Shown here in pieces: positions 46,177 to 47,412 of a stretch of 51,080 bases of DNA (positions within the stretch are counted from its first letter, which is position 1; every line of letters starts with the position of its first letter). The notes under the pieces were generated by a model. It saw only the letters and a list, made by a program, of their open reading frames with translations, was not told the origin of the DNA and did not search any database. The position numbers were made by a program, and so were the translations under genes. Location: the NCBI GenBank assembly GCA_036389795.1, contig DASVWD010000074.1, positions 1 through 51,080 on the forward strand. The letters run 5' to 3'. This stretch comes from Longimicrobium sp. (GTDB taxonomy: Bacteria > Gemmatimonadota > Gemmatimonadetes > Longimicrobiales > Longimicrobiaceae).

Positions 46177-47025
46177 TCAGGCGGCCAGGCGCGGATCCGT
46201 GCGCGTGGCGAGCGCCTCCAGGCGGGCGACGCGCTCCTCGGTGGGCGGGTGCGTGGAGAACAGCTTCGTCAGGCCGCCGCCGAACGCGGCCAGGGGGTTC
46301 ACCTGGGCCAGCGGGGCCACGGCGGGGGAGACGTGCATCGGGATCCGGTGCGCGGCGGCGTCCAGCTTGCGCAGCGCGTTCGCCAGCCCCAGCGGGCGGC
46401 CGCTGATCTGGGCGCCCACGGCGTCGGCCTTGAACTCGCGCTGGCGGCTGACGGCCAGCTGGATGAGCATGGCGGCGATCGGGGCCAGGATCACCATCAG
46501 CAGCCCCGTCGCCGGGTTGTCGTCCTCGTCGCCGCCGAAGAACAGGCCGAAGTGCGCCAGGTTGCTGATGGCGCCGGCCAGGGTGGCGGTGATCGTCAGC
46601 AGGAGCATGTCGCGGTTCTTGACGTGCGCCAGCTCGTGCGCGATCACCCCCTCCAGCTCTTCGCGCGAGACGATCTGCATGATCCCCTCGGTGACGCAGA
46701 CCACCGCGTGCTCGGGGCTGCGCCCCGTGGCGAAGGCGTTGGGCTGCGCGTGCGGGGCCACGGCCACGGTGGGCATCGGCAGGCCGGCGCGCTGCCGCAG
46801 CCGGTCGACCATGGCGTACAGCTCGGGCGCCTCCTGCGGCCCCACCACGCGGGCGCCGTACATCCGGAGCACCATCGACGCCGAGGCGAAGTACATCACG
46901 AAGTTCATCAGCCCGGCGAAGACCAGCGCCATGATCAACCCGCTCTGGCCGCCGAACGCGCTCCCCAGCGCGCCGAGCAGGGCCGTCATGGCCGCCATCA
47001 GCAGGAAGACCTTCACGTTGTTCAT
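46177..47025 (-). CDS. htpX: HtpX membrane metalloprotease (M48B), 282 aa
   Basis: An inner-membrane zinc protease for quality control of membrane proteins. Two N-terminal helices (about 6-50), then the active site HELAH with H130, E131 and H134, a further hydrophobic pair (about 143-190), and the third ligand E197 in REFKADAVGA. The C-terminal STHPPTEERVARLEAL is typical. The ATG has GGAGAG 8 nt upstream. A leader of about 380 nt precedes it and carries a likely manganese riboswitch with a terminator, so expression may rise with Mn2+. Confidence 0.95.
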   Translation of the reverse strand: MNNVKVFLLMAAMTALLGALGSAFGGQSGLIMALVFAGLMNFVMYFASASMVLRMYGARVVGPQEAPELYAMVDRLRQRAGLPMPTVAVAPHAQPNAFATGRSPEHAVVCVTEGIMQIVSREELEGVIAHELAHVKNRDMLLLTITATLAGAISNLAHFGLFFGGDEDDNPATGLLMVILAPIAAMLIQLAVSRQREFKADAVGAQISGRPLGLANALRKLDAAAHRIPMHVSPAVAPLAQVNPLAAFGGGLTKLFSTHPPTEERVARLEALATRTDPRLAA

Positions 47026-47226: not shown

Positions 47227-47275
47227 AAAACAAAAGCGAGACCCTACGGCACGTTGCGTGTCGTAGTGGTCTCGC
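47227..47275 (-). terminator. Expression-platform terminator in the htpX leader
   Basis: GCGAGACC pairs with GGTCTCGC, extended by a 10-bp inner stem (one bulged base), and is followed by TTTTGTTTTG. The 5' strand of the stem (47268-47275) is the last conserved segment of the upstream aptamer, so aptamer folding and terminator folding are mutually exclusive. It lies about 200 nt before the htpX start. Confidence 0.85.
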
Positions 47276-47389
47276 CGAGGTCCGCTCCGGGCCTCCCCGC
47301 GGGCCGGGGGCGCCTGCCGGACGCCCCGTCTTGACGGCCCGCGGGTGCCGGCGGCGCGATCACGCTTCCGCCGGCGGGCTACTCCCCAC
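47266..47389 (-). promoter_or_regulatory. yybP-ykoY-type manganese riboswitch aptamer
   Basis: On the minus strand the order is: P1 5' GTGG; GGGGAGTAGC (L1); a GC hairpin CCGCCGGCGG...CCGCCGGC (P2); CCCGCGGGCCGTCAAGACGG with the L3 CGTCAAGACG and returning CCCCCGGCCCGCGGG (P3); a hairpin with GAGG..CCTC (P4); GGCGAGACC; P1 3' CCAC. This matches the yybP-ykoY family pattern (GGGGAGUAGC ... CGUCA ... CRAGACC) that binds Mn2+ between L1 and L3. Known members mostly act as ON switches for Mn export or related genes. The downstream gene here is htpX. Confidence 0.85.
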
Positions 47390-47412
47390 AGGTTATCTCT
47401 TCTTGCGCCTTG

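Follow-up and report, generated by a model that had tools for sequence, protein, structure and literature searches.

Among known members of the yybP-ykoY class of manganese riboswitches, the genes under control are, to our knowledge, nearly all transporters. An initial annotation of a 51,080-nucleotide stretch of DNA from Longimicrobium sp. (GenBank assembly GCA_036389795.1, contig DASVWD010000074.1, positions 1 to 51,080; hereafter the window) placed such an element in the leader of htpX, a gene for a membrane protease, and proposed that Mn2+ would allow read-through into it. Is this leader a riboswitch of the class, and is htpX its target?

A yybP-ykoY-type aptamer in the htpX leader

A complete yybP-ykoY (Mn2+)-type aptamer is present in the minus-strand htpX leader at 47227–47393. 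Every element named by the initial annotation was recovered on that strand, at its coordinates and in the order given, with GTGG/CCAC closing the structure. The features of the locus are as follows (R1 is the covariance model described below).

47262–47393, minus strand: yybP-ykoY-type Mn2+ aptamer, four-way junction (R1, 70.1 bits, E 1.7e-15)
47386–47389, minus strand: P1 (P1.1) switch helix, 5′ strand GTGG, partner 47266–47269
47378–47387, minus strand: L1 signature GGGGAGTAGC, invariant in a 50-sequence alignment, in part because the homologues were selected by the motif pattern
47347–47375, minus strand: P2 hairpin (fold and compensatory changes)
47296–47345, minus strand: P3 stem, outer and inner parts (double-sided changes in 13 of 16 pairs)
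47328–47336, minus strand: L3 internal loop CGTCAAGAC inside P3, the expected Mn2+-sensing loop
47277–47295, minus strand: P4 hairpin, sequence-variable (fold)
47266–47276, minus strand: GGCGAGACCAC, inner-helix and P1 3′ strand, also the terminator 5′ arm
47276–47268, minus strand: GGCGAGACC, continuing into CCAC
47269–47266, minus strand: CCAC, closing P1 with GTGG
47227–47276, minus strand: intrinsic terminator, stem 47276–47235 and T tract TTTTGTTTT at 47235–47227 (−28.2 kcal/mol hairpin, on evidence from folding; stem long and bulged)
46177–47025, minus strand: htpX, 282 aa, M48 membrane zinc metalloprotease (HELAH), Pfam PF01435

The L1 GGGGAGTAGC and the CGTCA core of L3 match exactly in the window, and the GTGG of P1 overlaps L1 on its 47387–47386 side. 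Across the 50 homologues P1 exchanges GU/AC for AA/UU, and the invariant letters of L3, the loop whose role in the class is described in PMC6754395, are C, G, C, A and one later C. The leader thus has the architecture of the class: a four-way junction, the GGGGAGTAGC L1, a CGTCAAnnC L3, an inner P3, and a GCGAGACC/P1 strand common to aptamer and terminator. It differs from the known members, such as L. lactis yoaB, that of X. oryzae, E. coli mntP and alx, and B. subtilis ykoY (meeY), in being GC-rich, in having GTGG/CCAC or AAGG/CCTT as P1, in lying below the detection limit of Rfam 15, and in having a membrane protease, not a transporter, as its target.

Covariance models and covariation

When the Rfam model RF00080 (gathering cut-off 45 bits) was run on the window and its genome, no match was returned, even at E 10. 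The initial annotation had named a score below the family threshold as evidence against its proposal, and formally this is what was found. The E. coli mntP riboswitch is a validated member of the class; RF00080 scored it at 41.6 bits, short of the 45 needed (L078 4462–4558; L079 4374–4481 for the mntP/alx set), and did not report E. coli alx at E ≤ 1. Since mntP is under-scored and alx missed by the same model, its non-match is uninformative for the window. Copies that match the pattern in Geobacter, Nitrospirota and, ahead of TerC-family genes, Geomobilimonas likewise go unreported by RF00080, which in several relatives gives weak scores exactly at the element (20.7 bits in L007, 28.2 in L028, 21.7 in L043, 25.1 in L066 and 17.1 in L034). 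The family model in Rfam 15 therefore looks insensitive.

An independent covariance model, R1, was trained on 12 aptamers lying upstream of terC, CDF and P-type ATPase genes. It contains no htpX leader, so as to avoid circularity, and a homogeneous set of 12 non-htpX sequences was used because MAFFT placed P2 in an inconsistent register among subgroups. The R1 score is 70.1 bits (E 1.7e-15) for the window and between 39 and 72 bits for most other htpX leaders. In E. coli it placed both mntP (24.9 bits, E 9e-4) and, at borderline strength, alx (16.7 bits, E 0.13) just upstream of the right gene. Within the window's own genome R1 found two sites, the htpX leader and G000:C71:6159-6283 (L081, L201), the latter being a second copy of the riboswitch before terC with its own terminator, GACGAAGGTCTCGCC..TTTT.

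Compensatory changes were scored in a MAFFT alignment of 50 homologues with an RNAalifold structure. Double-sided changes were seen in 19 of 26 pairs, rising to 23 of 30 once P2 was completed, and they fall in P1, P2, P3 and the inner helix; P4 is supported by folding only. In these homologues 92.4% of paired cells can pair, compared to 69.6% in shuffles and 33–43% in slid controls, and 319 cells carry double-sided compensatory changes against 118 expected. The covariation score of 0.567, compared to 0.181, was never reached in 500 shuffles. The homologues were chosen by the motif pattern, and the invariance of the searched letters comes in part from that selection; save for a few fixed letters, the stems lie outside the pattern. 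The covariation that the initial annotation had called for in homologous htpX leaders is thus strong against both kinds of control.

The R1 match, the covarying four-way junction and the conserved L1 and L3 uphold the proposed class and architecture. Together they form strong comparative evidence that the htpX leader RNA of this soil-type bacterium would be a Mn-sensing switch of known class. The leader is very probably a yybP-ykoY-class manganese riboswitch working as a transcriptional ON switch, a reading for which the observed basis is sequence, fold, covariation, a competing terminator, gene order and phylogenetic recurrence.

Competition between aptamer and terminator

Folding of the isolated aptamer yields a four-way junction closed by GTGG/CCAC at −85.5 kcal/mol. 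When the full leader is folded, the terminator form (−108.7) is favoured over the P1-closed form (−92.1), and the minimum energy of the leader lies at z = −5.6 relative to shuffles of this 80% GC sequence. The last strand of the aptamer is the 5′ arm of the intrinsic terminator, an arrangement of the antitermination type. The competition between aptamer and terminator that had been proposed is borne out by the shared strand and by the two alternative folds. In 48 of 60 copies a regular expression found a complement of GCGAGACC 3′ of the aptamer. A promoter/terminator scanner reported neither a consensus promoter nor a consensus terminator between the aptamer and htpX. In some relatives a terminator cannot be recognised, and regulation in those may act on translation.

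For the members of the class in X. oryzae and L. lactis, single-molecule experiments have established that Mn2+ stabilises P1.1 and blocks the terminator, the P1.1 3′ strand in X. oryzae being GAGACCAGGGAU (PMC6754395, PMC11087558). Its GAGACC is shared with the htpX leader, and it is by homology to these two members that we read the leader as an ON switch; Mn2+ as ligand, docking and the ON direction would all follow the studied members of the class. The four-way junction would form while RNA polymerase leaves the aptamer. With enough Mn2+, L1 and L3 would dock and the P1 helix GTGG/CCAC would be held, keeping GGCGAGACC out of the terminator and allowing htpX to be transcribed. At low Mn2+ the terminator would take the GGCGAGACC strand, and transcription would end before htpX.

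The target gene and its distribution

The product of the gene downstream matches PF01435 (1.6e-35, 123 bits), with HELAH as the HExxH of the M48 domain, and combines this domain with an HtpX-type membrane N terminus, as in HtpX (M48B). Its top NCBIfam matches are all HtpX, yet lie under the equivalog cut-offs (344.6 versus 369). The start codon of htpX, ATG at 47025, lies some 200 nt past the T tract. Three relatives (L007, L010 and L011) have a short ORF, membrane-like and about 40–90 codons long, that adjoins the 5′ side of htpX and follows the riboswitch where a riboswitch exists.

The phylum Gemmatimonadota was searched with a pattern of three elements, GGGGAGTAGC-N-CGTCA-N-GAGACC. It occurs in 44 of 395 genomes, and the reversed control in one. 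Among 55 pattern sites the first downstream gene is htpX in 26 and terC in 16; the 13 others include genes for SPFH/Band_7, CDF and UspA-like proteins, for P-type ATPase and for an unassigned family with proteins of about 170 aa. At nine pattern sites terC is the gene after htpX, the order is reversed in L025 and L071, and in L025/L118 the two genes are adjacent and each has a separate aptamer. A search with R1 of a second draw of 150 genomes gave 28 sites, 11 of which have htpX on their strand no more than 250 nt downstream; random placement gives an expectation of about 0.001. In many relatives htpX starts 45–135 nt past the aptamer with nothing between. Both searches thus place htpX immediately downstream of the leader in numerous relatives, the gene order that the proposal of the initial annotation required. 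Not every member of the genus or family has the link: several relatives (L008, L010, L013, L017 and L018) have htpX without the aptamer. As in the known class, the same element stands before terC, CDF and P-type ATPase genes in this phylum, and these genes of Mn2+ homeostasis follow sister copies in the same genome or phylum rather than the window copy.

Two further groups of first genes were seen. In one genus-level group (L046, L051, L052, L059 and L063) the aptamer precedes genes for lipoprotein-like SPFH/Band_7 proteins; SPFH proteins are frequent regulators of FtsH. In L048, L049, L050 and L064 it precedes genes for proteins of about 160–170 aa, the two of which that were scanned had no Pfam match; these are a candidate Mn-responsive family.

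Outside the phylum, a scan of named genomes gave at least 120 sites, and the first genes were scanned for 107 among the matches listed. Among these 107 the first genes are mostly known Mn-type targets, including TerC (29), GDT1 (29), P-type ATPase (9), MntP (7) and Na/Ca exchanger (5). The pairing of switch and htpX recurs in two phyla besides Gemmatimonadota: in a Nitrospirota MAG (Nitrospirae bacterium MnB_6; L154, 3434–4658), which from its record title may come from a manganese enrichment culture, in the order switch, htpX, switch, P-type ATPase, and in the MAG of Geobacter sp. UBA9964 (L185) in the order switch, htpX, terC. An aptamer followed by htpX is also found in the Gemmatimonadetes L118 and L200. 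In Thermus tenuipuniceus (L111 4407–5229) the riboswitch pattern lies directly before a gene for a Zn_peptidase_2 membrane metallopeptidase, apparently a second type of protease under the switch, and in a Clostridiales MAG a copy precedes a flotillin-like gene (SPFH/Band_7).

Other readings of the leader

The leader might be a true Mn2+ riboswitch whose main output is a short RNA or small ORF, with htpX transcribed from a separate promoter within the 200-nt gap. The length of that gap in the window and the small membrane-like ORF between aptamer and htpX in L007 and L011 fit such an output, but the window gap has no evident ORF, in many relatives nothing intervenes between aptamer and htpX, and switch and htpX are paired in two further phyla as well; together these points make this reading improbable. 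We consider it slightly less probable still that the ligand of the aptamer has changed through drift, for instance to a different divalent metal or to pH, and that the aptamer serves to express htpX under envelope stress rather than in response to manganese. The low RF00080 score would be in keeping with drift, as would the fact that envelope proteases are usually stress genes, but RF00080 is insensitive to validated members too, the core is invariant, and in these genomes the element also precedes terC, CDF and P-type ATPase genes.

That the leader is a mere GC-rich attenuator or terminator resembling the motif by chance is hardly credible. Strong hairpins form easily at 80% GC, but chance resemblance would not account for an independent-model E of about 1e-15, for the compensatory changes, or for a reversed pattern found in one genome against 44, and on these grounds it was rejected.

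A possible link between manganese and membrane-protein quality control

The riboswitch class is known, and htpX appears to be a new target within the literature searched: a text search, with the target lists of the 2015 class-defining papers outside its scope, turned up no paper in which the motif is described as controlling htpX. Two B. subtilis systems offer comparisons. In the first, in which the TerC proteins MeeF and MeeY act in secretion-metalation, a TerC gene is, as here, under a Mn riboswitch; TerC is physically associated with HtpX and FtsH, the TerC protein MeeF co-purifying with HtpX, and FtsH becomes essential once TerC proteins are absent (PMC10550928). An htpX riboswitch is unreported there, whereas in the genomes studied here htpX and terC have a common type of switch and sometimes share one operon. 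In the second, the rhomboid YqgP and FtsH degrade MgtE under Mn stress (PMC7231995), which likewise ties Mn2+ excess to membrane proteolysis; unlike the htpX leader, this control is post-translational and the protease has no riboswitch.

Co-control of terC and htpX by Mn2+ would fit a module for metal loading and clearing of membrane and exported proteins. On Mn2+ excess TerC and HtpX would be raised together, TerC serving in Mn export or in the loading of exported enzymes and HtpX in clearing mismetallated or stalled membrane proteins. A broader proposal, for and against which we see the balance as even, is that Mn riboswitches of several phyla control a membrane-protein quality-control module that acts with TerC, and not metal export alone. 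Its members would be HtpX in Gemmatimonadota, Nitrospirota and Geobacter, Zn_peptidase_2 in Thermus, and SPFH/Band_7 proteins in Gemmatimonadota and the Clostridiales MAG, and through it the clearing of faulty membrane proteins would be tied to Mn overload or to metal loading, dependent on TerC, of proteins for export.

The pairing of switch and htpX in many relatives and in two further phyla suggests that membrane-protein quality control, like metal export, is switched on by an excess of manganese. Since the link to HtpX is repeated, looks independent and often lies beside terC, it lends genetic support to the proposed cooperation of TerC and membrane quality-control proteases during secretion, which becomes testable through Mn2+ induction of HtpX and the Mn sensitivity of htpX mutants. 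The current Rfam model misses much of the yybP-ykoY class in GC-rich phyla, and Mn regulons there are consequently under-annotated.
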